Source: Halichondria panicea
Lineage: Eukaryota; Porifera; Demospongiae; Suberitida; Halichondriidae
Direction of reading: 5' to 3'
DNA: 64,000 nt
Assembly (NCBI RefSeq): GCF_963675165.1
Contig: NC_087391.1
Span: forward strand, 3,708,646 to 3,772,645
This document shows positions 14,042-56,987 of the stretch, piece after piece; positions within the stretch are counted from its first letter, which is position 1; every line of letters begins with the position of its first letter. The position numbers were made by a program, and so were the translations under genes. The notes under the pieces are model-generated. The model saw nothing but the letters and a program-made list of their open reading frames with translations. It searched no databases and had not been told where the DNA came from.

Positions 14042-14074
<33 letters not shown>

Positions 14075-15221: not shown

Positions 15222-15342
15222 GACACATTATATTATAAAAATAATTATATGCACTTGACGTTTAGCATATTTGTCGACTCTATAATTATATGCGTATACT
15301 ATAATACATGCATGTATATTATTATTGTTTGCATGTATTAAA

Positions 15343-15763: not shown

Positions 15764-16410
15764 AATTTATATTTACATGGATGATTGTATCAATGTACGT
15801 TGTTGCTATAATTATAGCCTCGATCGTATTTTAATTGGCCTGGAATCGAGGGTATATATAGTGGGTGACAAAACATTTTAATTGACAATACTTATAAGAG
15901 TGGGTGCATGTAAAATAATTTATACATGTAGTAAAATTCACTGGTATAACGTATGTAACTATTTTTGTAGACAGGAGAAGGATTGACTGTCCTATAATTA
16001 AGATATGCCATGGCCAGCCATAACCAATTAGTGTTAATTGAATGAATTACAATGGTGTCTCTTAATACCTCCCTAGCTGCGCTGCTGTCTCAGAACATCC
16101 AAATCTAACATCAGCTGCAAATTAATTAACAAAGCACTTTCACTCGAAATTTTTTACTTTCAGCTAGCCTATATTGACCATAATAATTATGGTCAGTAGG
16201 CTATAATTAATTAAAGCTCTCTCACTAAAATATGGTTGTTAGCTACTGAAGAGACTATTATTTTTGCTTCCTTAAGAATACTGTAAAACAGGGGGATCCA
16301 AAAGATGCTGATGTCTCATAATAGCCCCTTGTACTCTATTCTTGGGTCAATATACTAACGTTGAGCAAGAATGAAGATAACACCGAGAATCATGCAAATC
16401 TATCTTGTGC
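15764..16410. other. Intergenic spacer
   Basis: No gene seen. A short inverted pair near 15817-15855 (TAGCCTCGAT and ATCGAGGGTA) resembles a remnant of the Mutator-like TAGCCTCG termini. A small hairpin ATTGACCATAATAATTATGGTCAGT occurs near 16172-16196. Confidence 0.5.
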
Positions 16411-16950
16411 ATGTGCTTGATCGATATTTTGCTTGCAGCACTAGCGATCCTTACCAGAGCATATCAAATTGAGACACGTGCTCAATTAAATACTTCCGGT
16501 CTACTGCCCTATTGGAATGCCGTGGTAAAGTATAAAGCACCATGGCATGCAATCACTTGCACAGAACTCAACGAAACTCTCTTATCAAGAATGGCAGCCG
16601 TAATGAATTCCCCAGTGTGCTACTCAACTGTCGGTGACCACCAACCAACGTTTATAGCTTCAAAGCTCTTTAAAGTCAAGAACATTGATGATAAAGGAAG
16701 AATCATTCACATTGGCAGTCTGGAAATAACTGACAACGATATTATCTTCACATATGAACACTTTCCATCAGAAGTGACAAGATGGCCTCTAACTTGTATC
16801 AGAAGATATGGCATAGGTGCAGAAGGTGGAGTGTTTGTAGTTGAAACAGGCAGGAGAGCTCCTAACGGTGAAGGACATTATGCATTCAAAACGAACGAAG
16901 CTGAAGAACTGGTAGAAAGACTGGATTATTACACAAGGAATAGAGTTTAA
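16411..16950 (+). CDS. PTB (IRS/FRS2/DOK-type) domain protein
   Basis: A single open exon. From about residue 65 onward it reads FKVKNIDDKG, HIGSLEITDNDIIF, WPLTCIRRYG, FVVETGRRAPNGEG and HYAFKT, then a final amphipathic helix AEELVERLDYYTRNRV. This is the order and spacing of an IRS-type PTB domain as in FRS2 and DOK adaptors. The two Arg positions that bind phosphotyrosine in this class (RRYG and GRR) are present. Such domains dock on receptor tyrosine kinases at the membrane. The start is uncertain: the ATG at 16411 gives a short hydrophobic N-terminus, while a good acceptor (TTGCTTGCAG ending 16439) suggests this may instead be the last exon of a spliced gene. No further domain follows the PTB, so the protein would be about 179 residues. 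Confidence 0.7.
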   Translation: MCLIDILLAALAILTRAYQIETRAQLNTSGLLPYWNAVVKYKAPWHAITCTELNETLLSRMAAVMNSPVCYSTVGDHQPTFIASKLFKVKNIDDKGRIIHIGSLEITDNDIIFTYEHFPSEVTRWPLTCIRRYGIGAEGGVFVVETGRRAPNGEGHYAFKTNEAEELVERLDYYTRNRV

Positions 16951-17175
16951 TTGTTTTGTAATTGCTGTCTATGTTCGTTTGTCTTTAATACACAACACAC
17001 CTGTTCTTTTTGTACTCTTCTAATAACTTGTTCTTTCAAAACAATTCACAACCAACAGTGCAACGATCGATGCGTATAGCTAAAAGTTTCAGGCAATTTT
17101 ACAACACTAGATGCATTGTGTAAAAAAACAAATGGTCTCATGAATGACATGAGAGTGGGATCCTATACTGCATGT

Positions 17176-19052
17176 TTATAGTTTAGCTCTGTGCCACTCT
17201 GGTTTCTTGTAGATTGTGACCACAGCTGCCCCTCCGATGCCAAAGTTTTGTTGCATTCCCACTCTGGCTCCATCTACTTGTCGCTTCTCGGCAAGTCCAC
17301 GTAACTAGGAGAAAGTAGGGCATGTGTAATTAACCACCTATTATATAATTCTCACTTTGAGACTCACAAGTTATTAGTGCCTTCAAAAGTCCAATGGTAT
17401 AGGTACAAAATTAATGTGCACAGATTAACACCAGAGGTGTACATAATTATAGTGTAGCCCTAGTGTTTGTCACATCATAGTTGCTGCCTTAGACACCTAA
17501 CAGCTGCAAGCACAACTCAACTTTATCCCCTACACCAAGTATCCCCCCCCCTTTCAAAGTCAAGAGAGACTAGAAAATTGGGTGGTAATCCTATCCAAAA
17601 ACTTGACAGATTTCTGGTTAGCTAGCTCGCCACCACATGTGCTGTGGTTGACCAAGGAAAACACACTTGCAGACTGAGGCTGGTACATAATTAGGTTACA
17701 CAACCCCTACATGTACCTACCTGCCAACAGATCTCAGCACATTGACCAAGGCCTGTAGCTCCAATGGGATGACCTGTGGTTGGAAGCAGTAGTTGCATGC
17801 TCAATAGACACTAGACAGACTAGGTTAATCACACACAGTCATGCAATCATTTGGGCAAAAGGAGTTAGAGTATAAAGAGGTACAGATTTCCAACTAATGG
17901 GAATGGTGTTGAAACGTATACGTACAATGTGGAGACTGACAGTTTGAAAGAGCATCAACTTGTTAACATAACAAGAATGCAAAACGTGACAGGTTGTATG
18001 TTTCAATATCAATCATGTTGACAAATGAAGCATCAAGACATTGTGAAGCATGCGACCCCATATGCTCTGTTTCCATTGCAGTGACTCACAATAAGGAAGG
18101 TACCCTTATGAACTAGCTGCATGACAAACCAACAACTATACATTGCAATGCTCAATGTATGTACCATCCTAAACACCATTTAACAAGTGCAATATTGAAA
18201 AGAAAATGCTAATTTCAATGTATGACCAGGTATACCCCTTAAAATGTTGAGGGAAACTTCACACTCAGCAAGTAAAAAAAATTAGCAATACACATCAAGC
18301 GCAGTAAAGGGATTCTGCTTAAACACAGTTCACTACAGAGCCCACTCAAATGTCCACTCTGTACATGCACTCAATGAAGGCATTGGGACTACAAGTCAGC
18401 ACGCCGGTCTTGTTGGGTCAACACCTGTACTGCCATGGTACACAGACCATGCCCCGTGTGTCAATAAAAGGTCAAATGCAAAAGCACTGAAACCAGCTGT
18501 CAGGATGCTCCATGTACTGATGATAAACAAACAAACAAACAGAGCTTACCTTTCGACTCCAGTCCACCACTAGCATTGACCACCCACCTCTGCCCAAGTT
18601 TGTACAGCCTGCCGCCTGTGAATAAGTGCATACATGTACATTGATCTATATTGATAGCAAAAGTAGTCACGCAATTACATCCTAGCCTAAACACGAGGGA
18701 GGCGGAGCAATTAGAATGGCGCCTACATACAACATGATCATATGAATAGACACTGCAGAAGCCTGCTAACTTGAGGCTTCAGTGTTGCTGAGGGAATTCG
18801 GGGTTTTCTTAATCTCAGATTAGTCCCACAGTGGTCTTCATGGACACAATACTATAATGAACTCACCCCATAGGTCTCTGACCCAACCAAACAATGTCAG
18901 TCTAATCTAGGTTATCAAGCTTGCCCAGTTCATTCTACTGCCTAATGTCCCCCCACACCACTACTATACCCGCACACAATATAGGACCCACTGAAGCCTT
19001 GGAAATACATGTATGTTGTTAGGTTACCTAAAACGCTGCATGAATGGCACAT

Positions 19053-19093
<41 letters not shown>

Positions 19094-22000
19094 TAACAAG
19101 GAAGTAACGTAACAGGGAAGTAAATAATGTAGAGCAAGGGATTCAATTATTACATGCATGTTAGAATTTTAGGTTCCATTAGCAATTATTTTTATGTGTA
19201 TATACATGGTTCATGTTGAGTCTCTTGGGCAGTTACAGTAAAGGGAGGTGGGTACACAGTCTATCATGTACTACTATAATAATAGTAGCCCCCTCTTTTT
19301 CGATAATTTGGGCTCTCTTTGTGGTGATGGGTGTATATAGTGGGAGGAACGGCATAATGTGATTCTACTTGCCAGAGCCAATAACTGTCAGCAGCTATAC
19401 CTAATACAGACATAAACATTACCATACATGCCATCTCTAGACTCAAAGTGAATTAACATTGGGTGGTAGCACAAATTACACAAGTTATTGTTTTTTTACT
19501 CAGACCAACGAAGCATTCATTATGCAATGCCTTAAATACACACAAACCAGCGTTCACATTATGCAATGCCTTAAACACACACAACCACCATTCACGTGAA
19601 ACAAATCAGGGCTACCCACAACTGAAGCTGTCAATAGCACTTCAACTGAAAGTAAACCACAGTCAATACTGAACATGAGATTTCATTCACTGCTGTATGG
19701 CATTATCAACCAGTATTGGGTAGCATCATTTAATTAGCTATGAAGTCATGTGGCATATACCTACAACGTACTTGACCTCTGAGATCAAAGGAAACACTGT
19801 GCCAATATCTGCTATATGACAAGGAAGTAACATAACAGGAAAGTAAATAATGTAAAGCAAGGGATTCAATTATTACATGTATGTTAGAAAATGCTGAATT
19901 TCCGTAGGTATAGCCTATACTGTGCCAGCCTATGCCTATGGTGCAGTATATGGATATTGGCATAGCAGTTAGATACTGGCACAGTATGGCACAAGTTACC
20001 TAAAGTCCACCAAGTCCACCCACCTACCCAACAACCTGAAACGGTCCCTTTTAGTTACTTGTGGTACAAGTAGTTGTAAACTAGTTGTCCTATAAAAGGA
20101 GTGATGTGTACACGGAAAGGAATGCAACAAATCTGTTGTTACACAGCTTCACTCCTGCGCACATTGGATATAATTATTATTTGCTCAGTAGTGCCTTTGC
20201 CCTCGGGCCTAAGTCACTACTGAGCCAATATATCCCATGTGGCACTGTGCATGTGTCACAACTATTACGTACAAGTGATATAAGTATAAGGCTTTCTACA
20301 TTCACGAGAGCCAATCAATATTTTGTAGGGTCGCGAAAACAGTGATTTTGAAACACCTTGCCCGTGAATTGACATTAATTATAACACTTATACACGCAGG
20401 GTAGTTCAATCATTGGCAAGACAGCCAGCTAGAAAAATAGGTAGGCTGAGGTAGGAAAAATTTCATGGAAATGGAACTACAAAATGTTTTATAGAGCTTC
20501 CGATATGAAACAATACTTTCCTACAGACCTAATAATATTACACTGAAACTCAGTTGTCTAGCTCCAGCGAGCCCAGCGGGTGCATTGTGTACTACAATGC
20601 TGTGGGTGTGTGGTTATGCCCAGAGTAGTAGATGGGGTCAGAAGATTTGTAGCGCTGGTTATTGCTTACCAAGCAAGTGGCTTCCTAAACAAAGCTAAAT
20701 ACTTTTGTAAGATGGGTACAGGTGTTGTGGTATCTTCCCCAGGGGAATTTGTCTCCATATTGACAATAACCAAGTCCTCCATTGAAGACAGGCCAGAACA
20801 CCCACACACCCACATACATGTGTTGGACCTACCATTTCTGTTGTGTATCCAATGTCCAGAATCAACCAAATCTCCACCTTTGCCCTCAGGACACAGCCCA
20901 AGTGCCTCATACTGGAACAGCTGCGCACAGGTAGTATAACAGTTACACTCATACACAAAACATTTATGTTTTAAATTACAAAGAGCGTATTCCAATTTAG
21001 AATAGTGTTGCTTGCTTACTTCACTCCACAGGGGAAATGGGACATCTAGATACACACATTGCCAGTTTCAACATAGACTAGTTTCAACATAGATTATATG
21101 CATGCATGGACTCCATACATGACTGTGCTAGCGAAACGCAAACAAATCAAATCGTCATGCAGCAGGTGCTGGATTCATAGCACTGGGAATAAAGTGAGGG
21201 ACAGGCAAGAAGGATGTTCAACATCCTTGTTGAATGTTAAATCACTATGTGACTCATACCCAAGTAAGCACCCACAAATTGGTTGCCTCACAGGGGGTGC
21301 AATGTAGGCCAGACACAAAGCTAAGAAACCACACTAAGTGCTCCCCTGTCTACAGACTGGACCACAAACCACACTATTTTAATATTCATGAATATCAAAT
21401 ACCAGCTCAAAGGGGTTGCCAACCACTGTCACTTTAGAGGACCTTTGTTTCACCTCCCCATTAGGGGTGGTTCACATATCAATGGTCAGTCTCTATAGAT
21501 GCACTGCCAAACCCAACCATTGTGCATGTGCCACTAAGGTAGTTACCCCATGTGTGCGCAACAGGGGTAGAGTGATTGGTGTGTGTATGGACACAAAAAC
21601 GACACTTTCATGACAGTAGTTGAAAAATACAGTGGAACCCCTCTATAACGGACACCTTTGGGGAACAATGTTTTGGCCTTTATACAGAGATGGTCTTTGT
21701 TGAGAGGTTATTTTGTACACAAACTGTTCATTAGGGACCTGGGTGCCTGGCCGTTATATAGCAACTGGCCTTTATTCAGAGGTAGTCAGGGTTTCATCTA
21801 GGATTTTAAGTTTGGGGAGGAAAACTGCGTGCGCCAGCGTGAAAATTTGGAGGCCACGCCAACTTCTGGTTACCACCCCCCCTATATTGTTTGTTGTTGG
21901 TGCCTATTAGCGATATACTCCTGGCAATGTGCATTGACAGGCAACTCCATGTAACTTGATATGCTGGTTTGTAATTGTCCATATACAACACTAGAAACCA

Positions 22001-25000
22001 CACGTACCAAAAGCAGATTTGTGGTAAAATCATCCTCTAGCAAAAGACTTGTCTATAGATCCTATTTTCCCCTTTCTTTTGGGGGGGAAGCTTCCCCCCG
22101 CCCCCCCCCCCCCCCACTAGATGAAACCCTGGTAGTTGTTAACTGAGGTTCCACTGTAATAGGCTAGTTATAGTTGAACTTGTAGGTGATTTTTGAAGGT
22201 GACAACAATCGATCCAATCGCGTCTTTACAGATTCATGACCTGATAATGTTATAATAACAGCAAAAAGTTGTTGTATCCGTTTTGCCCCTGTGCAATCGT
22301 AGTGCAATGAAGCTCAACGCACGAGGTGAATGCTCTATGAGATACAGTTGGGAGCCAGACACTATAACAAGCATACTGCCATGGAGCTCAGGTATGTATG
22401 TGTCTAGTGTGTCTAGTGTTACGTCATTGAGTGGCTGTGCAATATACACAGGATGTTTAGGGAGAGATCAAGACATGGTGTCAATAGAGGAAGTCATGGC
22501 ACTGTCACAGCATTTTGTTGAATGGGTATCACTTACATCGTTGGAGCATGGGTCACACTCTTAGTGTAGATCTCCATGCACTATGATTCAAAACATGTGA
22601 TCGTGTCACGGGTCTACAGCAGGCATATTTGCTATAATCATTACAGCAACTACAAATTCCAAAATAATTGCATTGGAAATATTTATTGTACATTGCCCTG
22701 CAATTAGGGTAACTAGTAACATGTGGTACAACGGTACATACGTATACTAGCGGTAACAGCTAATCGAGCAACATTACTGAAAATGGATTTTGTAATACAA
22801 TACCGATAATGTTTACTGTATGGTGACATATTCAATACAATGTATCCTATGTACATGTACATAGCCATCTAGATGACTTACGCGGAAAAGGACACAATAA
22901 AACATAAGTTACTTGGCTAGTATACATGTAGTATCTACACAAATTCATGCACACAAGTACAGTGTAATGGCAATGCCTTGGCCGGTGCTTATTATTATAT
23001 AGGGCTATTGTTGTTCGGCCACATGAAACACTCTATTTTGTATAGTGAGCAGAATCATTCATGTGTGTACCTCATTTGGAGCAAAGCAGTCGTGTACTTC
23101 AAACAAGTCAACGTCACTGGCAGACATGTGGGCGTCACGGTAACACTGCTCCGCTGCTCTCTTGCTCATGGAGTAGCCACACAATCCGAGGAAGGACTGA
23201 CCAAATGAGTCAGGCAGGTCCGTACACATATGCTGCGCTAGTATCTCCACAGCCTTGTCCTGCACAATGAATAGCAATGAACATTTTAATGTAATGATCA
23301 TTACCATACGTGTACATAAATACATTCTCCATTTTCAACTGTGACCATCTTTGCCATTTACCTAGCAATATTATATTGATTATTTAGCCGAATTTTCTGA
23401 GAGATAGCTAGTGACTAACAGGACCACCTATGCATGGTAATGGTGACGGGTGAGAGATAAGATAATAGATGCACTATAAGCAAATTTCATCTACGACAGG
23501 GTCAAACTTCAACCAATAATAAGAACAGGTGTCCCCTCTCATCTCATTTTGCACATGCACAGACGATTATATGCCCTAGTCTAGTTATACATTTGCACTC
23601 TGCTGTTTATCAATTAAGTGGGCGATCAGAGGCGTGGTTTATCCATTCGCTTATCCGGCATAATTATTCAATTATCATAATAATACCTGGCTCTGAACAA
23701 TTAAAGGGGTCCGAATAATCGAGGTTCTATTCATACTGATAGCATTCACAATAATAAAGTATACACTAAAGTACAGAACCCTCTGCATAAGTATAGGATA
23801 TACCACACCTACGAGGAGGATATGCACCCTTACATACCCTTTGGTTACACCTCGGAGTAACCACTGTAGCGGAGGATATACATGAGTGCATATCCTCTGA
23901 GTAGGTGTGGTATATCTGACTTATACCATGTGATCGCAGCACTATAAAATGACCTCCCCCTAGCAACGATTCAGTGCACGATGCATACTGCAAAAAGAGC
24001 AAGCTATGCCTGATTTTGCAGTAGTCAAAGAGCTACATGTAGTAGAGCAACACATCGCCTCCTACAGATGCTCAGGAGCTTCTTTAGTCCAAGCGTTGTG
24101 CATTCGACGTCCTTTACTGGAGTTGCAAACTCTTCTTGTATCTAAACCACGCCAATGGCCATGGACCCATGGAGGCTTAGCCATCTTGTTGGAGAGCAGC
24201 TTCTGTGTTTCTGCTGTCACTTGGAGTCTTAGTACCGTCAAGCATGGCTTCTTTACTTTCTTGAACAAATGAAAAACTTGAAAAACACATTGGAAACTGT
24301 GCATGCCTATGTTATTTTTCTATGTATCATACAGCTGTTGACCAATGAGATCAATTATTGGTGACGAAGTGTGGTATAAGTCGGGGTTGTCATATGAAAA
24401 CAAAGCACATAGATGGGCTCCACATGGTAGACAGAGTGCGTTAGCCTCGTCCCCACACCCACTTCCGCTCCTTGTTATTGCTTGGTCGAGAAGAGGCCCT
24501 AATATCGACTGCTTGTGCATGCACTACCTATTCACCAAAATCTGGGGAATTCTGATAACAACGTACACGCTCAGTAAAACAATGATGTCTTATTATGTTA
24601 ATAACGTCTCTGTAATCTCTAGCAATTGGTAAATTATACGTAGATCTACAGTTCAGGCCGTATTCACTACTCCGATATCTTATCGTATCTTAGCTTGCTT
24701 TTCAATCTGCCTACAACAATTAACAGTGAGAATGACCATCATCTGAACGCAGCTGACACTAAACAACATCTCAGTGTGAAGGTCCTGCAACAAACCTACA
24801 TTTGATTGAATTATTCCTCTTTATTCAGGATATTTTGGATGAAATGTTCAGTTTTACAGTACGAGAAAATATCCAATAAGCTTGCACGTGCGCAATGTAC
24901 AGTCAGTGGCAGGATTTTCTTTCCTCGCATCCTGTGGAGGGCTAAAAGTGCGTATATATAATTTGATATCTCGAATCAAAATTAAGTGCCTCGAATAAAG

Positions 25001-28000
25001 ATCATGTATAAGGTAGTAGCCTTGCAGCCAACGTGACACTTCAAGCTTCTTAGGTTGCTCGGTTTTATTTATGTTTATGTTGAGGCTATCAATGCAAACG
25101 CACTTCTTTGGTCATCCAGGTCAGCAGACTCAGAATCACAAACAGACAGAGAGACAGACCAGACGGACTACTATCACCTACATGTATACATGCATGTACA
25201 CCATTACTGAAGGCTACCCCGTTCATAAAATTCACATGTCACCCTATCAACCATCTCGAATGATAAATTGCTCCATTGATCTCCATTATCATGCTCCATT
25301 TCACTTCACTATTTTAGCTACCGTATTACTAGAATATTTTGCGGGTGCGAATGAGCCAAATCAGCAGAAAATTTGACCCTTTGCGATCTAACTATTGCGT
25401 TCGTGTGTATTTACTAGTTAGGTTTTGCAGATTTTATTGTTGGGATCATCCACCGCAAAGTTCGAAAATGTTTGATGCTCGCAAAACATTCTAGTAATAT
25501 GGTAGTACAATAAATAATACACACATGCATACATACGTTCTGGAATCCACCATCAAAAGCAACTACAAAAGGAAAACACACTCTCTACAACCAGACGACA
25601 AAAGGGCACTAAAATAATTAATAATCAAAACTACAATCGAGCTAGGAAACATTAATATCACACATAATAATTATTAGCTGCATGTTGTACAGCAGCTTGT
25701 ATGAAGATAATATACCAAAGCCTAACGTAACTAGAGAACTGAAGTGCTAAACCCTCGGAGATCGTATTATAGCATAAGTACATAGATCTCACAACCAGAA
25801 TGTTGTACTGAAAAGCAGTAGTATCACTATTATGTACGAAACCAGGAGTGAATGAATATTCATGCACTCCTGATGTAACCTAGTAGCAACTAACAGGGGC
25901 AATGAAGCTAAGCTATTATAGAGCAAAATCAAGATTTGAAGGCTATTGCAAAACTTTGAAAACGTGCGTGGTGCATATGGTCAGACATGCACTGGGACTA
26001 GGATCACAGCAGAGGCAGCAAAGAAGGCTTGAAAATAACTATGGCTGTAGTGCGCATGCGTAATGGTGTGCCTCGAGTTACTGACTCTTATATAGCTAGC
26101 TCTAGCCAACATGCAAGGTAGCTTTTGTTCGCTTTTTTCAATAAAGTTTTAAATATGCCACTAATAAAACTAATAACTTGTTGCGTTAAGCCTATCCATG
26201 TTGTAAACGCAGCACTATGGCATCCAGGTGAGCAAACTCAGAAGACACACACACACAATAACCCGTATGGAGCTGCTTCGGGTTAATTATGAGCCCGATT
26301 ACTTTCAGTACCACATGTACCCTCACCTCTAAGTGGTGCTTCCTGACAAACTCTTCGCTGCACAAGACAGCAGCTGCTCCTCCATCCCCAGTTGGGGCGG
26401 TCATCGCTATGGTGATAGGACCACAGACGATCCGCTTAGAGAGCACTTCCTCCGGAGTAATGGATTTCTAAGCAAATACAAAATAGCCACTAGTCCGCAT
26501 GTACCAAAACACCAACCAAGCTCAGGGTTGGAAAATTAACCAGAGGACAATTTAGAGCCAAGGCCGCATAGAAACGTCAGTAACTTTTTAAGCCAGAAAT
26601 TGCACACGTACCCAGTCTGTCACTGCTTACCTGGGTGGCTGCCCTGGGATTTTGGGTTCCCTGGGTCCTATTTTTGCTGGCAATCTTAGCGAAATGTTCT
26701 TGCTTGGTACCATATTTATGGCAATGGTCCTTTGCAGCATAGGCAAACATCTGTATGGTAGATATAAAACGTGAATGGGTAAGCCAATATCAAGGATACT
26801 GTATGTTTCTTTATACAAAGGCTAAATCACCACATTGCTATTTTATGTTTTTATAAACCACAATCGTAAATAGCTGTTACTTTGACGACATCGGAGGTGA
26901 CAGCGTTGACGTGAGGGTTGAGAGGGCCTGGCTCCACTCCAAGAATTTTGAGCCCTTCCACATGTTGCTGGAGGGGAGACACACGATCTGGGAAGTTCTC
27001 AGAGAGACCACTATTCATCTTCTCAAACCCTACACACAAGTTGAAACATACATGTACGAGTAACAAGTATGGTAAGTATAATGTGCGGTACTTTATAAAC
27101 TGAAGTTAAAGATAATATCAGTACCAATACAGATATATAACATATCTGCTACTACCTAGAGGCCCAAAATGTTTTAGTTTGAGATCCAGCAACTTAAGTT
27201 GAAGTCTCATGCGGCTACAAAGACACCGCAATGCTCTCACCTACAGCGAGAGTGCAGCCGTGCCCTGCCTGAATGAGAATACGAGCCATCATTAGAGCAG
27301 TGGAACCTGACGAGCAGTTATTATTCACATTGAACACTGGCACTCCAGTCAGACCGAGACCTAACAGGATAATGAGATGAGAGCATTGCTTTATAATAAG
27401 AGGTTGTGGGTTGTGGTCACTTACCATACACCGCCTTTTGACCTGCAGAAATAAATATAGCAACTTGTTAAGTAAACGTACTTGCATCACAACACACACA
27501 AGGTACAAGGAAAAAAAGCAATGACTGGAAAAACAATATACATGTACCTACCATAAAACCTTATTTATGAGCCAGGGGAAAATGAACTCCCCCATATGTA
27601 CTTATAAGAGGGTTAACATACAGTTACCCGGCCATTAACAATCTAGAAGAAACAAAACGTTGGCTATAAATGATCATACCACAAGTTGGATCGCCATAGC
27701 AATAGCTAGCAACGACTGCTTCCACTTTATCATATGGTATTCCTGCGTCCTTGAGAGCGTCAGTGGCAGCAAGCTCCCCCATTTCTGTGTGTAGATCGAG
27801 TACTATTAATCTAACACCATGTCTGAACGTGTGGACATGCATCTTACCAGGATAATCCCATTTACGCTGGTGGGGACGCTCAAACCTGTATTGAAAAGCA
27901 CGAATAGTAAATACACACACCATAATTATACCAGTAGTGCTAGTGCAGTTAGGGGGAGATCGTCTTTCTGTAGATGGCATGGATATAAATTCCTTCCCTT

Positions 28001-28365
28001 TGGTGTATTAGATCTACTCGATTTAAGGCGACATTTACATAAGGCCACACCAAAGTAATCTTATGTTTCACAGATTTTCCGGGTCATATTTTTGCAGAAT
28101 GTCCCTAAAAATCAATCAATTAGTGGTCCAGGTCAGAATATAATGGCCACGTGATCTAGCAAAACGTAGTCATGTTTACACGACATTACAGTTGTCGCTA
28201 CTTTCAGAGGTCAGAAGTTTGCCTGAGCTTGGAGCTAGGGTGTCGCATATTTGGCCTTTTTTGGAGGGTCGCCTTAGGCTTATTAAATTGATCGATCTTA
28301 TGGTCTAATAATTCAACTTACTTTGTCATTCCAACACCAACAACAAACACTTTTTTCCCAGACAT
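17176..28365 (-). CDS. SCP2-type 3-ketoacyl-CoA thiolase with C-terminal PTS1 (-AKL)
   Basis: Thirteen minus-strand exons: 28322-28365, 27848-27885, 27680-27784, 27425-27442, 27241-27360, 26881-27029, 26631-26750, 26327-26467, 23071-23259, 20833-20920, 18550-18615, 17721-17773, 17176-17304. They give 419 residues. The start reads [15 protein letters not shown]. The nucleophile lies in [15 protein letters not shown] (Cys84), followed by the thiolase motifs [36 protein letters not shown] and [11 protein letters not shown]. This is the thiolase half of SCPx, which cleaves branched and bile-acid-like 3-oxoacyl-CoA in peroxisomes. The protein stops right after the thiolase domain, so there is no SCP2 sterol-carrier domain, as in nematode DAF-22-like enzymes. 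It ends HRAKL, a canonical peroxisomal signal. Exon 4 is only 18 bp. The gene is spread over 11 kb because several introns are full of repeats. Confidence 0.92.
18616..20832. other. Large thiolase intron with microsatellite and direct repeats
   Basis: Contains a (CA)n run at 19055-19090. A roughly 73-bp segment at 19098-19170 (beginning AACAAGGAAGTAACGTAACA) recurs in direct orientation at 19818-19890 with a few changes. A CATTATGCAATGCCTTAAA unit occurs at about 19517 and 19557. No coding exon is supported inside. Confidence 0.7.
21630..22156. mobile_element. TA-flanked MITE (CAGTGGAACC termini), split by a second MITE
   Basis: The left end CAGTGGAACCCCTCTATAAC is flanked by TA (21628-21629); the right end GGTTCCACTG is followed by TA (22157-22158). 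These termini are of the pogo/Tigger type. Its interior is interrupted by the element at 21787-22131. It lies in the thiolase intron 20921-23070. Confidence 0.8.
21787..22131. mobile_element. Nested MITE with CAGGGTTTCATCTAG termini
   Basis: CAGGGTTTCATCTAG at the left end is mirrored by CTAGATGAAACCCTG at the right end. GTAGT flanks both sides (21782-21786 and 22132-22136), a 5-bp target duplication. It inserted into the older CAGTGGAACC element. A C-rich homopolymer is near its right end. Confidence 0.8.
23786..24385. mobile_element. Dispersed repeat element, copy 1 (GGATATACCACACC ... GTGTGGTATAA)
   Basis: Begins TATAGGATATACCACACCTA and ends GTGTGGTATAAGTC, an inverted pair. The interior aligns along its length with 47305-47945, including an internal hairpin around GGTTACACCTCGGAGTAACC and an open stretch reading PDFAVVKEL...[13 protein letters not shown] and RRPLLELQ on the plus strand. 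It lies in the large thiolase intron 23260-26326. Not assigned to a named family. Confidence 0.7.
25060..26300. repeat. Two partial copies of the CCAGGTGAG-core dispersed repeat
   Basis: 25078-25165 contains TTGAGGCTATCAATGCAAAC, CATCCAGGTCAGCAGACTCA and a CAGACAGAGAGACAGAC run. 26188-26290 contains GCCTATCCATGTTGTAAACG, GCATCCAGGTGAGCAAACTC, a CA run and CTTCGGGTTAATTAT. Both match the copies at 62130-62405 and, inverted, 6845-7085. The 25400-26090 stretch between them is AT-rich and holds no gene that I can support. Confidence 0.65.
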
Positions 28366-28622
28366 GTTTGGTAGACCTGGCAGGCTAGTCTAGCTAGGCT
28401 CTCAGTCTGCACAGATATCAAAAATGGACAAAAAGTGACCTTTGCCTGCTCACCAGATGGGCCAATTGGGTGTGTCCAGGGATGTGTGTCTTTTTATATG
28501 CGCATGCATGTAGATCTAGATCTAGCTCTGCACATGTATTAATTTAAAATAAGTCTACACGTACGTACACGTACACACAGAGCAAGCTAGCTAGACTAGA
28601 CTCTGTGAATTAAAATCTAGGC
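28366..28622. promoter_or_regulatory. Bidirectional promoter of thiolase and carotenoid oxygenase
   Basis: Only 257 bp separate the two divergent start codons, so both promoters must lie here or in first introns. TGACCTTTGCCTG at 28436-28448 resembles a DR1 site, the type bound by HNF4/PPAR-RXR nuclear receptors. No TATA box is obvious. Function is inferred from position and motif. Confidence 0.55.
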
Positions 28623-31600
28623 ATGGCCACCTCAAATCCTGACTTCTCTGAGCCTATTCACTACAGTAAGCTGAGGAAAGGATGGCATGCCTCCCCTAAG
28701 GAGTATGATTACTGGGTACCAGAGGTTGACATTGAAGGCTCCATTCCCAGAGATCTGGAAGGCACACTGTTTAGAAACGGACCAGGATTGCTTGAAGTGT
28801 ACGGCAGTGAACTGAAACATCGTAAGTGCAATGCAAGCACATTGTTTACTTGTGATATCCTGAACTGCCTGAACTATTATATAAAAATCCATAATGATAT
28901 CTACATGTAGATATATCTAGCTAGCTTGCAAACTTCAATTATTAGCTATGCACAAACTAGTTTTGGTTATCACCACTTATTTTATTACCAAGTTATACTT
29001 CAGCTTAACAAGGATTACTTGTTATCTTTCTCCTAGCGATTGATGGTGATGGCATGGTAGTCGCACTGTCATTTGTGGACGGGAGGGTCCACCTACGCAC
29101 TCGGTTCGTGGCCACCAAAGAGAGACTGGAGGAGCAGAAAGAAAGAAAGCTTCTCTATCGGGGACAAATGGGCACCAACCCTCACAGCGCCATCAGAGAC
29201 ACAGCTGTACTCCTCAAGAGCTTCTTGACTCTCTCTTGGCCCACCTTGCGTTACCGCAACCCGTCCAACACCAATGTATTCTACTGGGGTGGAAAGGTAA
29301 TCAATGTGTTTGGATACGTGTAAAGTAAATCAACTTTGAGTTAGATCTAGCTGATAATTATTTAGGACACCATGGCCAATTAACTGTAATTTGCTTCACT
29401 CTCATTCATTTTGTGTTCCGCAAAAGCTTTGAATTGGCATACTAGAAGATAGTTACACTATAATTATCTGCACACTCAGATAGCCAGCTAATGATCGTGC
29501 AGGTTTTGACTGTGTATGAGACCAAGTATCCTCACTGTCTGGACCCTCACACACTGGAGACACTCGGAGTGGAAACACTGAATGGAACACTCAAACTCAG
29601 AGCCTTGGCTGCACACTTCAGGCTGGACATGATCAACAATGTGAGTATAATTGTGTTCTGGCTATTGAGTTCAACAAGCAATCTTGTATCTTATTCAGCA
29701 CTAGTGTTAGGCTATAACACTGTGAATTGCCGTGTGTCACTAGCTATATACCCAGTTAATGTGTGTACATGATGGTTAAGTCATAAGTTCGTGTGAATTA
29801 GTTTTGTAGTAGTCTCAGCTGATCTCCCGAAAAAATATCTCCTTTTTATACCGTATAGCGGGTAATTTTCGTGGGGTAAATATTCGTTATTTTCGTGAGC
29901 AGGCTGACCTCCACAAAATTTTATCGTAGGCATGGCTTATCTGAACGTAGGAATGCCGTGCAGCCACGAGACTAAACACAATTTTTACTCACGAAAACTA
30001 CCATTTCTCGAGTTGAACGAATTTTTTACCCCACAAACTTACTCGCTATACGGTACTCTAACATTTTGTCAATTACATGTACTTATGGTGTAGGGAATAT
30101 ACACACATACGTTATAATGAAATTGAAGAATTCCTTTTTCCATTCCTCACACAGCGATTGGTCTGTTTCGGGTTAACTCCTGGAGTGGGGAGTCGCGAAC
30201 CCTCTCTGGCCATCTATGAGTATGATGACAAGTGGAACCTTGTGCAGCATCAGTTGCACCACATTGATGGTCTCAACTATGCCCACGACTTTCTCCTTCT
30301 TCGAGATTACTACGTGTTTCACATGACACCATTTGCTGATATGACCCTTACTGCTGCTCTGAAGGTGTTTACTGGGCTAAGCTCTCCCGGAGAGCTGATG
30401 AAGTACCACTCTCACCTCCCATCACGATTTGTGGTCATTCCCAGGCACAAGAAAGCTCCGTACCAGGAGGTCAAGCTACTCGACACTGAGCCTTTCCATG
30501 TAAGTGCTTGTGCTGTGTATATGATAAAAATTCAGTCACCTTTGGAAAATTATTTTTATCTCACCACTGAAGGCTGTCAAAGCAATTCATAGCTTATAAA
30601 ATAGTGTACATTTGGAGCATGAATACCAATTTATTAGCATATTCACAGTGTGTTTGTAAACCACAAAAGGTCATTAGCAGCAGGTGTTTACAATTATAGT
30701 GTGCAGTGGCAGCAGTACCCATAGCAAACGAGGTTTATTGAGGCGTGTTTATTGTTGGTTGAACCGCTACGACAACGTGAAATATCGTTGGCATTTTTCA
30801 GTATTGAAAGCCACAAAGTGGTCGCTGAAAATACACAATCAGACTCCATGGATGTGTGTTATATAGTACTCGTAATGGTAGTGTTTTTTACTTCAATGCT
30901 CTATACACATTTTCGCCAATGCAGCCTATAAAAATTTCTGTAGTGCACCGAATGCAAAATCAAATTGACTTAATTGGTCTGTTAATTATTGCAGATATTC
31001 CATTTTGGGAATGCTCAACAAACTGATTTGGACACAATTTCCTTCAATGCTGTATGCTTGGGTCCAAAGTTCAACATGAGTTTTGACAAGAAGATATGGC
31101 TGGGCAACTCATCGGTTACCCCTGGCAACATGTGCAAATTCACCCTTCATCTCGACAGAGACAAGTGCGATCAATCCCTGAAACCTTCTGACCCCGCTAA
31201 CGTTGAATTCCCCACCGTCCACCCATACAGGTGTGTCTATGTGTCATTGTGCTCCTCTCTTCTGGAAATTGATTAATCCGTGTACTAAATCAATTAGAGC
31301 AGCATGCACTTTTCCCCCTTGTGCCGGTGCTACGTGTAGAGTGTTAATCGAGTGAATAATACGCATTTGAACACACATTTGTGGTAGAGAAACCCTTGTT
31401 TGAATGTATGTGACCATGACCACTGATATTTTGTATGCAGGCATGGGTTGTCCACCTCAAGGTACTCGTACCTGATGTCTAGTGACCGGGAGGGGTACAA
31501 GATGCCCTACAGGGATGTCGTCAAGGTATGAATGCTTGTCTGGGTTTTCATGCCTTATACCTCATAACGAAATTTTTGTTTTCAACCAAAGCTCTCAAAC

Positions 31601-32030
31601 CTCTGTTTTGTAGTAGATCTAAAGTCAACAATAATAATTATACCAATCGGCTGCTACTAATGTTCTTAATTAAAATTTTAAAAGTGCAAAATGTGCTCAA
31701 ACCCCCCCCCCCTTATAGCATGACCTGAAGGGTGAGAGTCGCCAGGTGTGGTACTCTCACGGATGCGTGGGAGAGCCTGTTTTCGTCCCTCGATTGGGCT
31801 GGGCCTCCATTAACCAAGGAGATGATGACGATGGCTATGTGCTGGTCATGCTCTATATCCCTGACAAGCATGTTAGTGAGTTTGCTGTCCTCGATGCCAA
31901 GCATGTGGATCGAGGCCCTCTAGCTAGGATCAAACTCAAGCACCATATTCCCTATGGCTTTCATGGAACTTTCACTCCTCACGTCTTTATCAAAAATGAC
32001 AGTGTACCCAAGCCAGCTGCTAAGCTGTAG
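28623..32030 (+). CDS. Carotenoid cleavage oxygenase ending in -AKL
   Basis: Seven exons: 28623-28821, 29037-29296, 29503-29640, 30155-30499, 30995-31230, 31441-31525, 31719-32030; 524 residues. Non-haem iron enzyme that cleaves polyene double bonds with O2. The N-terminus has LEGTLFRNGPGLLEVYG followed by HPIDGDGMV, the family signature. All four iron-binding His are visible: His191 (AAHFRLD), His243 (YAHDFLLLRDYYVF), His317 (IFHFGNA) and His503 (PYGFHGTFTP). The vertebrate BCO/RPE65 PDPCK motif is not seen, and the overall feel is closer to plant, algal or cyanobacterial CCDs. The C-terminus KPAAKL is a plausible peroxisomal PTS1. It shares a 257-bp divergent promoter with the thiolase, which has the same C-terminus. 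Substrate cannot be told from the sequence. Confidence 0.9.
29851..30053. mobile_element. MITE of the CCGTATAGCGGG family
   Basis: CCGTATAGCGGGTAATTTTC at the left and CTCGCTATACGG at the right, with TA on both sides (29849-29850 and 30054-30055). It lies in the carotenoid oxygenase intron 29641-30154. Confidence 0.85.
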
Positions 32031-32210: not shown

Positions 32211-33982
32211 CTAGCAAGAGCATGAATTGGGTGGTTTATCAGTGGAGTCATTGGGAACCAGCCCGATGAGTCGTTTGGTCTGTGATGCACTGGAATAACT
32301 GCCTCCGTATAGTTTGGAGTGTGTACCGACAGTTGTGCTGGATTCTTGGTCAATATTCTCTAGCCCCAGATCCACAAAATCCTCGTTTTCAACCTCCTCC
32401 AATCTACGACTGGCCAGCTCAAGAATCCTCTCAACAATGAAGTGCATTGCTTCAGCTGTAGTCAAATACAAAGTGACAATCAGTGATGTACCTCTTTAAC
32501 AATAGCAACACATAATTGTACTATACATTATTTTAACTAGACATACTATAGCGCCGATAAAATTAACAGCATGGGAATTTTCCGATTGATTGTTTCTACA
32601 AATCCTGGGAACATTTGAACTTACTGATATTTGTGTTATCTTTGGCGGAAGTAGCAAACCTATAGAAATAGAGTGTTCATGCATTTTATTAAAAAAATAC
32701 CTCAACATACCATCCAGCTATATCATATTTGGAGCAGAAATCGTCCAACTTTGAAGTGTCTACTTGGCTATTATCAGCATCATTCTACACATCAAATAAA
32801 GACTGTATTACTAAACATTTCAGAAGAAAGTCTATAATTGACGTACTTTGTTTGCAAGCAGTAAAACTGGAACAGGGTGTCCATTATCAAGTAACACGTT
32901 CTCATTTACATCGCTCAGCCACTATATAGGAAAAAGGTTGTGTACATGGTGGCTTGCTTCTAATATATTTACTCTGAGAACTGAGTCGAACGTCACTTGT
33001 CTGCATGGGTGTAGAGAGGAATAGAGTGCATGAGGTCACCATCAAAAGCTATTACTTACCTCGTTAGGTCAAACACAATGATTGCAGCAATTCTGCATGT
33101 TTGTGAAATACAATATAAAGTAAACTTTCTTTAAAGAATTGATGCTTACGCATATCTGTAGTAAACTCGAGTCATGTGCCAGAACCGTTCATGTCCAGCT
33201 ATGTCCCTATATAGATTAATGAGTTAATAGACTGCATGTATAGTCAGTCATATTAAAAAACCCTCTAGATCATATAGTAGCATTGACACAATAATATAAA
33301 GGATAAAGATATTCATTCATCATGTGACTGTACATATTAGGCCAAACATGTACATGTACTGACTAATTAGTTACCATAACTGCAAGCTGATTCTTGTTTC
33401 GTCTGCCCATTGCAGGGTCTTTAGAGAGAAATCGACTCCAATAGTGAGCTTGTAGTTTGGTGAGAATACGTCTGCAGAGAATGAATTCTATGCATGATAG
33501 TGGATCTAGCTTCCAACTGTGTGGGAGCCCAATCAATTAATTTTATGCTACCACATTACAGGCAACATGCATCAACGTTATATAATAAGTACTATATACA
33601 TGTACAATGCTCATATAAAGTGCTCAATGCCTCACTTTCCGTGTATCTCCTGATGATGGATGTCTGCAAGGAAGGAAAATATGTGGTGATTGAGATCTAT
33701 TGAAGAGCTGGATTTAGCTAGCTATAAATGAATAGGCTGACATCAGCTACTCACCTTGCCTATTGGAGGTTGTCCACACAGTGAGCAGTTGAAATAAATG
33801 ATAAACAATTATTATTAATTAATACACAGTCTACATGTAAATCTGCTCAGTATTTGCTTACCAACTCCAAAGTCTCCAATTACCAGCACTTTGTAGAGCT
33901 GTTCCTTTGGACTGTCTTCTTGAGGAGTGTCCAATACCGATCCATCATTATCATGTACCTCACTAACACTAGCACTAGCCAT
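32211..33982 (-). CDS. Rab32/Rab38-like small GTPase with Gln-to-His change in switch II
   Basis: Eleven minus-strand exons: 33862-33982, 33755-33759, 33636-33663, 33375-33471, 33150-33206, 33060-33092, 32973-33000, 32847-32921, 32711-32784, 32625-32659, 32211-32455; 265 residues. The core reads KEQLYKVLVIGDFGV-GK-TSIIRRYTE (P-loop), YKLTIGVDFSLKTLQW (switch I), LQLWDIAGHERFWHMTRVYY (switch II), LLLANKND (G4) and FATSAKDN (G5), with C-terminal CSC for prenylation. The pattern fits Rab32/38, regulators of lysosome-related organelles and mitochondria. The usual DIAGQERF has His at residue 89. The GK of the P-loop is supplied by a 5-nt microexon (33755-33759). N- and C-terminal extensions are longer than in typical Rabs. 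It is head-to-head with the iPLA2 gene. Confidence 0.88.
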
Positions 33983-34219: not shown

Positions 34220-37200
34220 ATGGCGAAGTTGGTGAGGTCCCTGTTCGATTGGTCCAGCTCAGGCTCATCTCAGGACGGTATGGTAAGTGTATGACGGATC
34301 TAGATCTAGACTGTTATAGATCTGTCTATTAGCCACCTACAATAATTATGTATTATAAATGACCTGGTTCCTATTAAACTACAATTTTTTTGGAATGCTT
34401 TGTGAGTGATTACGATATTACCTATAATTTGTGTATGAAATCGCCTTATTGCAAAACTTAGACAGCCAGACTGTCTGATTTGCAACGACTATAGTGATAC
34501 GGTCTATGTTTGTCCAATCGTTGCGTAAAATACAGCCTGGTAGAGTCAATCTAGTGACATTATCAAATTCATCTCAACTAATTTGCTGGTATGGGAGAGG
34601 GTACTGGGTAGGGAGGGAGTAAAACCCTGTAGTGCCACAATGTGACTTTAAGATCGCCACAAATAGTTTGGGTATCCCGCTAAGTAAAGATTCAAATCTT
34701 GTACTCTGCAGGAAGGAACTCGTGTCCCACAAGGAGATGAGATACAGCAGCTTCATGCTCCAAAAAATGCCGAGGTAGGCATATCTCTGTAGGTGATATC
34801 ACATCCACTGTTTGTAAATATCATGCAGGCATTGAAGAGAATTCTTGTGGAGAATCCATCACTAAACTTGAATGCTATTGAGCCAACTCTGTCAAAGGCT
34901 CCAATACATTCTCTCCTCCTTGGTAATCGTCCGCAAAGAAACAGGTTATTAGAAGTATTTCTCACCTACGGAAATGTGGATGTCAACCTACAAGATCTCG
35001 ATGGTTCGAGACCACTACATTTGGCTATCAAGGTAATACCATGAAAATAACAATAACTAAGTATGTGCCAGATTTGTATTTACATTATATGCTATTATAC
35101 TACTATTTCCCACAGAACAATGACATCCCCAGTGTGAAAATGCTGACAGTGTTTGGAGCCAATGTGAATGCCGTGAATAGTGATAACCAGACACCGCTTG
35201 GTCTAACAAAATCCAAGGCCACAAGATTTTTTCTGAAGAAAATGAATTCTTGGACTGGAGTATCGGTAGAGGAAAGCAGTGATTTTGGATTTACTCTTGT
35301 TCCCCACGCTCCCCCTCCCTCAATGCTAGGGGCGATCGGTGAAGCAGTAGACACAGAAACCATTTTAACACATGGAAATGCAGTGGATTCTTCTATGGAA
35401 TCCAGTAGCAGCCTTACCAAGAACTACGGGGAAGTTTCTCAGTCTCTAGTACGAGAAGAGGTTGAGAGTGAGCTAGCACAACTGCTGAGATCTGTGGAGG
35501 GAAGTGTTTCTCCCGATAAAATCTATCCGAATGTCGCTCATTTACCTCAAAAACATGTTCTGTATGAGGACAATTCCTCAGCAAGGAAACTCTATATGCA
35601 GCTGGACGTTGCGCTAAAGAAGCAAACTGACAACCTTAACTCAATTAGCAGCCAAGACGAGATCGTGGCCTGTTATAAACAGCGAAAAGAATTGGCCGAA
35701 TTCAAGAAAACTGGAAATCGTATTCTGTGCCTGGATGGTGGAGGAATGAAGGCACTGGTGGAGTTGGACATACTATGCAGTATTGAGAAGCACACTGGAA
35801 AGAAGATTACTGAGCTATTTGATTGGATTGTCGGGACCTCAACTGGCGGTATTCTTGCTCTGGGACTGGTGTATGGTGAGGTTTTGTTAAAGCATTTGTA
35901 ATGTTGTTATGCCTTTGAGATGCGTGTACACGCAGTACTCTGCTTCCTTTTGTGGCCCTGGTTTTATTCAAATTCCGCCCAGGATTTTAGACAGGAAGCA
36001 GGATGCAGGGGATGCTATATACCCTTGAGAAGCCAGATTCTATTCAATACATAAGTTTTTGCCGAATGTTGTGTGCAATAGTATTTTATTTGTGTTGTAT
36101 GGTGGCTTTGTATGTCTCCATTTTTCAGCTAAGAAATCTGTTGAGGAGCTTCGTCAGATTTGCCTGCAGCTCAAGGATGAGGTGTTCGCTAATCCAAAGT
36201 TTGGTATATCATACAACTCAGAAGCACTGGAGAAATTTCTCAAAAAAACGGTTGGTACAAAAATGAGAATGAACGACATTAAGCATCCAAAGTGAGACAG
36301 CATATATTTTTGAGTGGACGAAAATGACATTGTGTGTTGTTGCAGGGTTCTTGTTTCAGCGGTGTACAAAGGCTCTACACCTCTCCAGATTCACCTTTTC
36401 AATAATTGCTTTGATAATGAGCTCAGTAACGGTAAATGAAGTGTTACTATAGGCTATGGGAAAGAAAATTGTATATGTCCTGATTTTGTTAATTTTATGT
36501 TGGCATAGAGACCATTCCTCAAATTACCATGCACTTTCATCAAGTCCTCTAAATTTGTGTAAATGTGTGAGTAATTAAGGTTCCCATGCAGAGCTGGTCT
36601 GGAAGGTAGCAAGGTCCACCTGTGCTGGGCCTATGCTATTCTCTGAGTTCAACAACTACGTTGATGGAGGTGTCCTTTGCAACAACCCCACTGAAAAAGG
36701 TGTGACAGCAATTCAAAACTACCATTCGGAAAAAGGGGAGAGGCTGCCTATCTCACTGGTGGTGTCAGTGGGTAGTGGAATGTACCCAGAGGAAAAGCTG
36801 GGTAATGTTGACGCTCAAGACTGCATATCTCTGACTAAAATGTCTGCCTTGAAAGATCGGGTCGGCAACCTCATGGGATTGTTTATGAATGCCGTAAGTC
36901 TGCCAAACACTTACGCTCATAAACTTTTGAAATGCCCTAAATTAGCTACTTATAAATAATTATTATATAAGTGTAGCCTAAGGATGGATTTTATCTCGTC
37001 GTTTCTCATTTTTCCGTGTACAGCTTGTGGAATCTGAAACTGTGGCTGAGACATGTGATCGTAACTTCAAGGAGCAAGGAATTCCTTACTACCGATTCAG
37101 TCCTCAACTCAAAGAGACTATTTCTGCAGGGGAGACAGATTCACGAAAACTAATTGATATGGTCATTACCACACGGCAGCAAACTATAGTGCGAATTAAA

Positions 37201-37221
37201 GAAATAGCATCAGACCTTTGA
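34220..37221 (+). CDS. Ankyrin-repeat calcium-independent phospholipase A2 (PLA2G6-like)
   Basis: Eight exons: 34220-34282, 34712-34774, 34829-35032, 35116-35875, 36129-36291, 36346-36431, 36592-36893, 37024-37221; 612 residues. The enzyme hydrolyses the sn-2 acyl chain of phospholipids, releasing polyunsaturated fatty acids. The N-terminal part has ankyrin-type repeats (DLDGSRPLHLAIK and a following ANVNAVNSDNQTPLGL). The patatin domain shows the oxyanion loop LCLDGGGMKAL, the nucleophile elbow GTSTGG (Ser352) and the dyad Asp in YVDGGV (Asp471). It is shorter than vertebrate PLA2G6, with fewer ankyrin repeats. It is tail-to-tail with a lipoxygenase, 182 bp apart, and shares a divergent promoter region with a Rab gene. 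Confidence 0.92.
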
Positions 37222-37403: not shown

Positions 37404-40400
37404 TTATATAGTGATGCTGTTAGGAATTTTCTCAGGTAGCATTGCAGTGTACTTCACTTTCAAGCCCTTGTTTCGCTTCTCAATATCTTTAGAGACATCA
37501 TTCAGATCCTTTCGGAAATTTTCCATTACTTGAACTGCTTTCTTTTCCGTGAAACGAGCTTTCAGAGTACCAAGAAATTCCTACGAGACAGAATGATTAT
37601 TGTGAGTAAACACAGACGTACTACATCTAAGGGTTGGGTACGCTCTCTGTGAATAATTGAGCAAAAAGGATTCTTTAATATAAATCTCCCTATTGGTGCG
37701 GACTTACATTCAATGATATAACTATAGGTTCACACAACGAAACTACAAGATTAAGAGCAATATGCAAAGCATACCTCATTTTGGCTGTACTGTGATAGAA
37801 GATGAACTGTGCCAATAGTGCTGATGACGCTTTCCTCCTCTGGCAGTGCTGCAATGAGAGCCTCATCATCGGTAGCCCCTTTCTTGACAGGTGGTGGCTG
37901 GCGTACACCAAACGGAGAATTTGGCACAAATTTGTAGAAGGAATACTGCAAAAAATTCACGGAGGCATGTTGGGCCGATCCAGTGAACATGATCAGAGTA
38001 CAGTAGAGCTTCAGCTCTTCTTTAGAACTCATTTTATCGGGGAAGCCATGTCCGACTGGAGCACCGTGGTAACCAGGGAAGCCATTGGTGTGAATGTCTT
38101 GTGCCCATGCTTGTAGCTCCTCGTCTTCCACAACATCTTCGTCTGTCTGGTAGAACTCGTCGATGATGTCGCCGGCATAGCTCTCCAGAGCATCCCACAC
38201 TTTGATCCCATCATCTCGATAGTAGTAGCCAGGCAGCTGCTCGGCATTGTCCACCCCTCGCTCCTTGGCCCAACGCTTGATGTTGCTGGTGTGAACATTG
38301 TAGGTTGCTCCACAACGTTTCCATTGTTCAGTCAAGCCCTCACCACCGATGCCAAAGAAGGTATCAATGATTCCTCCAGGATTGATAAGACTGTTTCGAG
38401 CACGAGTATTGATAGCCATGGTGTAGCGAAAGTGTGGACGAAGGAGTTTGAAGATCGGATGTGCATCAGGAAGGTTACGATTAGTGCCCATAGAGTATGC
38501 TTCCATGGTAGCGTGGCACGCAGTATAGTGGGTGAACGTCTGATGATACTGTTACGAGTAATACAATTTTATATAGAGTGCAAGTTTGTATACAGGGAAT
38601 GTGTAATGAATAGTATATAATGCAATTCAAGCATAAACGTTGTTTTACAATTAGACATAATAACTCTGTAATGAATCACTAAGGCCACTATTCTACTATG
38701 CAGGTCAACTAAGAGGTGGTGGGCCTATATTTTGTATGGATTTAATTTCATGAATACATTTAACGCTTCACTAATTGATTTGAACAATAGTTTTTGCGGA
38801 TTCAACTCCTCCCCTGCTCAATTTTACAACACCAAATTTGTTGTGCATGCCTTACATTCCATTGCAAACCATTCTATGTTCAGGAATTTTGAAAATGTCA
38901 ATGCAGTGAACCACAAGTCACTTTTAGGCAAATGGCCAATCACTGTACACATACAGACATCAAAACTTCATATATAGCATTATTAGTGGATGAAGAAAAC
39001 ATTTATGTTCACAAATTTTGCACAGATGGTACAGAGAACGAGTTTTGACATAGTTTAGGAGTGGGCGTGGCCTAACATTCGTTTGGACCAACCTTTTGTG
39101 CCATTTTTAACGCCTTCCATAAGATATTTTTTTCAGAAATAAGCTCCTACACTCCTAATAATTATGTAAGTAATCACTAATGAGCCTTCAATGAAGCTGT
39201 TGTAGAATACTCCATTTTGGAGTGCAAATACAATTTTGGAAGTTTATGCTGAATTGCACTATACTTATAGTCTATATGCTTCACGTAGAAGTTACATATA
39301 TAGGAAAATTTGATATTCGAAGAGCTCGGACTAGAATTTCTTGCAAATGTGTATAGATCTACTCACCTGGCTGTGTGCACTCTGATAGTATATTTTTGCC
39401 AGGAGCCAGTCATTTGAGCTGTCACTCGGCAAGAAGATTGGATTGTTTGTCTTTTCTTCCTCCCTCACACCTTGCTTCAACTGGATAGCAATGGGAACCA
39501 GTTCCTTGCTTTTGTTAACATAGAGCAGGCAGATTGGGGCAACGCTGACATAGTTCTCTCGTGGCTTCAGATCATCCATGAACTTCATGTCACACGTGTA
39601 AATGTGTCCAGCCTGAAATAAAAATCATGGTGCTCTATGTTTGGTTTGATCAAACATGCATGGATAGCTAATTAATTATAATGCTTGAGATAAGAAAGTA
39701 GAAACTTGATGAGGCATACCTCCATTTCCTGTTGGAGAGAGAGACCTCTCTCAAGGAATGGATGAACCATCTCGTTGGTCACGGGAAAATTGGGAGGGAT
39801 GTTCTCACACTTCCTAATGATGATCGGACTAACTGCATTGAGCATCTCCCATCCAAACTCTGCATCGGTCTTCCAGCGATCCGTTTCATAGAGAGACGAA
39901 TCTCCACCCAGTTTATCAGCAAAAATCTTGAAATCATCAAGTTGGTGGATGTTGTTGAAAACTCCCGTAATTTTCATGGAACTAACGCTCTTTAAAGCAC
40001 CGACAGTGAAATCTAAGTTCTTGACGGTCCCAAACTGTTCGTCTGTAGGTAAATCGACTGTGGTGTCGTCAATTGCAGAGGGGAGCCCTGAGTCTGGAAA
40101 ACTCCGCCACTTGTATACTTCCTTGCGTCTGGTCAGCTGGCTAGCTCTTTGCTTCAACAATATATTATTACCAGTCACATCCTTCTTTGTGGCTATAGAA
40201 AAATAAAACAGAGACTCCTATACACTTTGTGCTAGACAGAGTTACACAAATTTTAAGCATTCAGTATAAATGATGTATAAGCATATGAAAATATTTGCAG
40301 CTGTGCATACTGGTTGTAAGTTCCCACTCTATCTTCCCCTTCCCGAATCAGTGTGTTTAGGGAAGTTAAGGAACTCACCAAATATTTGCAGCTGTGCATA

Positions 40401-54800: not shown

Positions 54801-54840
54801 ACTATTTTGTACAATCATGAAAGCCTAGCTGTCACGATAT

Positions 54841-56882: not shown

Positions 56883-56987
56883 GGAAAGTGATAATAATGC
56901 CAACTTGAGTATATACATTAACCTACAAATGTACAAATGTTATACAGTTGAGCTTAGCTCTGTTAAAACACTTATACAAGAGAAAAA

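Follow-up and report, generated by a model that had tools for sequence, protein, structure and literature searches.

A 2020 paper describes the ACO-like (ACOL) family of carotenoid oxygenases in cnidarians, fungi and a single amoebozoan, and its available part also assigns two Suberites proteins to the family (PMC7221588). The Suberites domuncula proteins rBCO1 and rBCO2 are 533 aa long, with a pI of 8.5-8.6 (available text of PMC3280542). ACOLs retain the catalytic residues, yet the sponge member that was tested, rBCO2, cleaved neither β-carotene nor lycopene in the same account (PMC3280542). The location of ACOLs is described within PMC7221588 in two ways that do not agree: the abstract speaks of "strictly cytosolic" ACOLs, and according to the discussion they are "predicted to be secreted". 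The cytosolic label comes from Acropora ACOLa, which was expressed in HEK293F cells from pcDNA3.1/V5-His TOPO and detected with anti-V5; in the available sections of that paper, it is recorded in no fraction but the cytosolic one (PMC7221588). In the literature searched, no peroxisomal animal carotenoid oxygenase was found described, although other papers, among them subscription ones, could hold one, and no paper joining "carotenoid oxygenase" with "PTS1" was found in an open literature search.

The thiolase SCPx is characterized as exclusively peroxisomal, with a function in branched-chain β-oxidation; DAF-22 of C. elegans has no SCP2 domain, and the C-terminus of Hc-DAF-22 is AKI (excerpts of PMC4966567).

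The window (the whole stretch of 64,000 nucleotides of Halichondria panicea DNA that was analysed) contains a gene for each of these two kinds of enzyme, placed head to head. Its animal-type genes and short gene spacing, together with the known distribution of ACOLs, are consistent with a sponge source. The ACOL family and the peroxisomal SCPx/DAF-22-type thiolase are already known; what stands out here is that an ACOL carries a canonical PTS1. Judged from the protein sequence, it is likely that the oxygenase both belongs to the ACOL family and is imported into peroxisomes. If this is true, its peroxisomal address would narrow the search for ACOL substrates to molecules that are handled in peroxisomes, and the label "strictly cytosolic", which comes from a V5-tagged construct, would be overturned.

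Gene models and the thiolase

The thiolase gene runs from 28365 to 17176 on the minus strand and the oxygenase gene from 28623 to 32030 on the plus strand. The features of the locus are as follows.

28623..32030, plus strand: carotenoid oxygenase gene of the putative ACO-like (ACOL) kind, 524 aa encoded in 7 exons, C-terminus -PAAKL (PTS1)
17176..28365, minus strand: SCPx/DAF-22-type thiolase gene, 419 aa encoded in 13 exons, without an SCP2 domain, C-terminus -HRAKL (PTS1)
28366..28622, no strand: intergenic spacer from start codon to start codon, 257 bp
17176..17187, minus strand: thiolase C-terminal AKL codons and stop
31992..32030, plus strand: oxygenase C-terminal extension KNDSVPKPAAKL and stop, reaching beyond the most similar cyanobacterial C-termini

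The oxygenase exons lie on the plus strand at 28623-28821, 29037-29296, 29503-29640, 30155-30499, 30995-31230, 31441-31525 and 31719-32030, and the protein that they encode terminates in VPKPAAKL (fuller ending, IKNDSVPKPAAKL). Both spliced models are open and in frame, and every intron is GT-AG. The endings HRAKL and PAAKL and the gap at 28366-28622, which had been proposed in an earlier sequence-only reading, are all borne out by these models. It is very improbable that either gene has been given a false last exon and that the real transcripts end elsewhere. For the oxygenase, five poly(A) signal variants were looked for in about 270 bp after the stop and no copy was found, as might be expected if the true end lay elsewhere. 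However, the last exons of both genes carry the family alignment to near its conserved end and then a tail. Furthermore, on the thiolase strand ATTAAA is present at 16989 and at 16951, and the reading frame of the convergent neighbour ends 225 bp past the thiolase stop.

Other genes were also read in the window.

about 9893-16950, plus strand: apparent receptor-like gene or genes, several Ig-like exons by eye, terminal IRS-type PTB domain (PF02174)
32211-33982, minus strand: gene for a Rab32/38-like small GTPase (219 bits to Rab32), start at 33982
34220-37221, plus strand: patatin-like phospholipase gene, PF01734 on one exon, start and ankyrin-like repeats by eye
about 37404-43067, minus strand, and 49948-52514, plus strand: two oppositely oriented lipoxygenase genes, each with PNSITI at its end
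56967-58496, plus strand: 509-codon open stretch, many apparent membrane spans, no Pfam match at 0.001

To read the P-loop of the Rab32/38-like gene, which was done by eye, a micro-exon of 5 bases is required (GCAAG, 33755-33759), and AG and GT border it. The PLAT domain of the lipoxygenases was identified by Pfam on the minus-strand copy and by eye on the plus-strand copy. By eye, the 509-codon stretch resembles a POT/SLC15 peptide transporter, and a partial similar stretch is present at 54829-55227. With two lipoxygenases, a patatin-like phospholipase, the SCPx thiolase and the ACOL, the neighbourhood has many genes of lipid oxidation, a concentration that may be due to chance.

The best solved relative of the thiolase is SCP2-thiolase type 1 from zebrafish (6hsj; 428 bits, residues 5-411). 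The protein also scores 489.6 bits against NCBIfam PRK08256 (lipid-transfer protein), for which the cut-off is 436. A Pfam search (E 0.001) returned thiolase-fold families only, and an SCP2 domain was not found. These matches place the thiolase in the SCPx/DAF-22 group, with the DAF-22 layout that dispenses with the SCP2 domain. Since this family is peroxisomal, a PTS1 on the thiolase is expected, and the earlier description of the enzyme as peroxisomal holds, both from its PTS1 and from its family membership. Therefore, it is the PTS1 of the oxygenase that is informative.

Family of the oxygenase

The oxygenase (524 aa, pI 8.07) matches Pfam PF03055 with a value of 5.7e-103 over residues 32-508. 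Among solved structures, its best relative is the apocarotenoid-15,15'-oxygenase (ACO) of Synechocystis, at 280 bits; the next distinct solved enzyme scores 105 bits. Chains of the animal type score 65-66 bits (β-carotene 15,15'-monooxygenase) or 53 bits (RPE65), with a range of 53-66 bits for the RPE65, NinaB-type and BCO1 enzymes as a whole. The protein is 38% identical to ACO, and His 191, 243, 317 and 503 together with Glu 159, 385 and 440 are invariant. These four His and three Glu correspond to the iron site of ACO. The sequence PDPC does not occur in the oxygenase, which accordingly has no PDPCK motif of the animal BCO/RPE65 enzymes.

A relocated enzyme of the BCO1/BCO2/RPE65 type was considered and rejected, given these scores and the absence of PDPC. 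Thus, the earlier proposal of a peroxisomal animal carotenoid oxygenase is partly retained: the gene model is complete and the PTS1 canonical, but the enzyme resembles an ACOL and not the BCO/RPE65 group.

Relatives outside animals were sought in three collections. Prokaryotes were scanned with one genome for each species, using patterns derived jointly from the window oxygenase and ACO, and all ten relatives were cyanobacterial, at 33-40% identity. A tblastn search of 72,556 plasmid records, which was made without such patterns, matched 62 of them, and the best 15 of the 62 are 25.7-28.3% identical to the oxygenase. In the viral contigs scanned, no relative was found.

A tree of 17 rows was built from the window protein, ten cyanobacterial sequences and six sequences from other prokaryotes; one outgroup row (L012) comes from a record that has no annotation and consists of the stretch that matched. 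One cyanobacterial locus (L010), whose reading frame is broken, was excluded both from the tree and from the count of C-terminal tails given below. The window oxygenase is placed near the cyanobacterial ACOs on a long branch of its own (1.48), and positions nested within them or alongside them are not separated. Because the tree lacks clear nesting and the branch is long, nothing firm follows from it about horizontal transfer. By its scores and residues, the oxygenase fits an ACOL that is, among the sequences searched, closest to cyanobacterial ACO.

The C-terminal signal of the oxygenase

A PTS1 is a C-terminal tripeptide with a consensus of the kind [SAC][KRH][LM], which the AKL of both window proteins matches. 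AKL is itself counted as a PTS1, within a near-identical consensus, in the available text of PMC8140964. In the six frames of the window, 5,789 tripeptides directly before a stop could be read. Of these, 21 (0.36%) matched [SAC][KRH][LM] and three (0.05%) were AKL, two of the three being the ends of the genes described here; the expectation from amino-acid composition is 0.28% and 0.04%, respectively. Only one open stretch of at least 60 codons in the window ends in a PTS1-like tripeptide, and this is the last exon of the oxygenase; the last exon of the thiolase, which is shorter than 60 codons, lies outside this count. None of the five other gene ends that could be read in the window, partly by eye, is a PTS1 (ITI for both lipoxygenases, CSC for the Rab32-like gene, SDL for the patatin-like phospholipase and NRV for the IRS-PTB gene).

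The signal is carried on a tail. Past the last iron-binding His, the oxygenase has 21 residues, compared with 6-14 in each of the nine cyanobacterial relatives whose C-terminus could be read. When these are aligned, HGTFTPHVFI of the oxygenase matches ends such as HGNWTSEVFI, and KNDSVPKPAAKL, which follows it, has no counterpart in the nine cyanobacterial relatives. None of the nine terminates in a PTS1-like tripeptide. At the other end of the oxygenase, no N-terminal presequence is obvious by eye.

The -AKL of the oxygenase could nevertheless be coincidental and the enzyme cytosolic, as is reported for Acropora ACOLa in the available part of PMC7221588. Chance alone gives a PTS1-like tripeptide at the end of about 0.3-0.4% of readings, and genomes hold many genes; the tripeptide may be an accident of one species. 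However, what is found is the exact canonical tripeptide, situated on an extra tail. In addition, in the vector pcDNA3.1/V5-His TOPO the tag follows the insert, placing it at the C-terminus. Since such a tag would hide a PTS1, the published localization, if obtained with a C-terminally tagged protein, could not have revealed this signal. Coincidence is rather unlikely, and the oxygenase is quite probably imported into peroxisomes.

Under the reading preferred here, the ACOL would enter the peroxisome through the PTS1 (-AKL) on its added tail. Once inside, it would most likely cleave apocarotenoids or other non-carotene polyenes, as cyanobacterial ACO does, and these substrates would be derived from food or from symbionts. 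Apocarotenoic acids in which the carboxyl lies beside a methyl-bearing carbon are α-methyl-branched, the type of substrate on which SCPx-type β-oxidation acts; the acids resulting from the activity of a peroxisomal ACOL would be of the kind that this pathway handles. That apocarotenals can be oxidized to apocarotenoic acids in animals is stated in the available text of PMC9003029. A joint pathway linking the ACOL to the SCPx thiolase is plausible only, and somewhat doubtful.

The shared spacer and the described relatives

In the sequence-only reading, the two genes were taken to share a promoter and to be co-regulated. The arrangement, head to head across 257 bp, is as described, but co-regulation is weakened by what surrounds it. 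A second head-to-head pair, formed by the Rab32/38-like and patatin-like phospholipase genes, is present in the window 5.4 kb away and has a gap of 237 bp. In the sponge Amphimedon, 45% of genes are arranged head to head, and for 11,379 of these the starts lie no more than 1 kb apart; intergenic distances have a median of 587 bp (available text of PMC4773876). Because of this nearby pair and the Amphimedon rates, the 257-bp spacing carries little information. The divergent layout was rejected on the same grounds as proof of co-regulation, and the closeness of the two start codons is best explained by a genome that is compact in general, not taken as evidence that the genes are controlled together. 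Co-regulation of the thiolase and the oxygenase is unlikely.

The spacer contains one TGACCTTTG at 28436-28444, an extended nuclear-receptor half-site. This is the only copy in the 64 kb, for which 0.70 are expected. The motif was picked post hoc from among twelve short patterns that were looked up, and no match to a fuller DR1-like pattern lies in the 257-bp spacer. For these reasons, and with 0.70 expected per window, the motif is a lead only.

If the pairing does have a function, the divergent promoter would co-express the ACOL and the SCPx thiolase, and the two would act in sequence in the peroxisome: the product of apocarotenoid cleavage would be oxidized to an α-methyl-branched acid, which after CoA activation would undergo β-oxidation with loss of propionyl-CoA or acetyl-CoA. 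The close head-to-head spacing and the presence of a PTS1 on both proteins are consistent with such a joined pathway, as is the single TGACCTTTG if it acts as a nuclear-receptor half-site. So are the role of SCPx as a branched-chain thiolase (PMC4966567) and the ability of animals to oxidize apocarotenals to apocarotenoic acids (PMC9003029), as far as the available parts of these papers go. However, another short head-to-head spacer lies nearby, and Amphimedon has many of them (PMC4773876, available text), and the motif was chosen after looking, at a frequency that chance would supply and with no DR1-like pattern beside it. A joined pathway under shared control is unlikely.

There is about an even chance that the two genes are simply neighbours in a compact genome, with an ACOL that is truly peroxisomal and a thiolase whose work is unrelated to it. 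SCPx-type thiolases have other roles, in the breakdown of pristanic acid and of sterol side chains, which could occupy the thiolase here. The 237-bp divergent pair nearby agrees with this explanation, as do the base rates for Amphimedon (PMC4773876, available text). On the other side, two of the seven gene ends read in the window carry a PTS1 and belong to immediate neighbours, a result that is somewhat unlikely if genes for PTS1 proteins are scattered. In its widest form, the peroxisomal reading would hold that early-branching animals cleave carotenoids or apocarotenoids in peroxisomes, using a PTS1-tailed oxygenase of cyanobacterial type that is paired through a divergent promoter with a branched-chain thiolase. 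This would provide a compartmented route to short retinoid-like or fully degraded products, and the cytosolic location of ACOLs would be an artefact of C-terminal tagging. This wide claim is improbable.

Among described systems, a peroxisomal location has been predicted for members of the carotenoid cleavage family in plants, namely copies of CCD1 in Bixa orellana (PMC13386687) and NCED6b in Brassica napus (PMC7470270). In the available text of these reports the locations are software predictions, and the enzymes belong to another subfamily than the window ACOL (PMC13386687, PMC7470270). Synechocystis ACO (PDB 2biw) shares its identity of 38% with the window oxygenase along most of the length, together with the His and Glu of the iron site. 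It differs in being bacterial, with no organelle signal; its solved chain has 490 residues and is aligned to residue 487, leaving no long tail.

The thiolase resembles SCPx and DAF-22 in belonging to the same SCP2-thiolase type 1 family and in its terminal PTS1, and the SCP2 domain is missing as in DAF-22 of C. elegans. In vertebrate SCPx, which ends in -AKL, the PTS1 is carried by the SCP2 domain. That domain comes after the thiolase domain in the vertebrate protein (available text of PMC4966567), whereas in the sponge thiolase the PTS1 comes directly after the thiolase domain.

The window oxygenase also resembles the published ACOLs, including rBCO1 and rBCO2 of Suberites. Like the window gene, these are eukaryotic, have the four iron-binding His and no PDPCK, are closest to cyanobacterial ACO, and are about 524-533 aa in length (available text of PMC7221588, PMC3280542). 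In the portions of those reports available, the published ACOLs are called strictly cytosolic or predicted to be secreted, with no mention of a peroxisomal signal (PMC7221588, PMC3280542); in contrast, the C-terminus of the window protein is a canonical PTS1.
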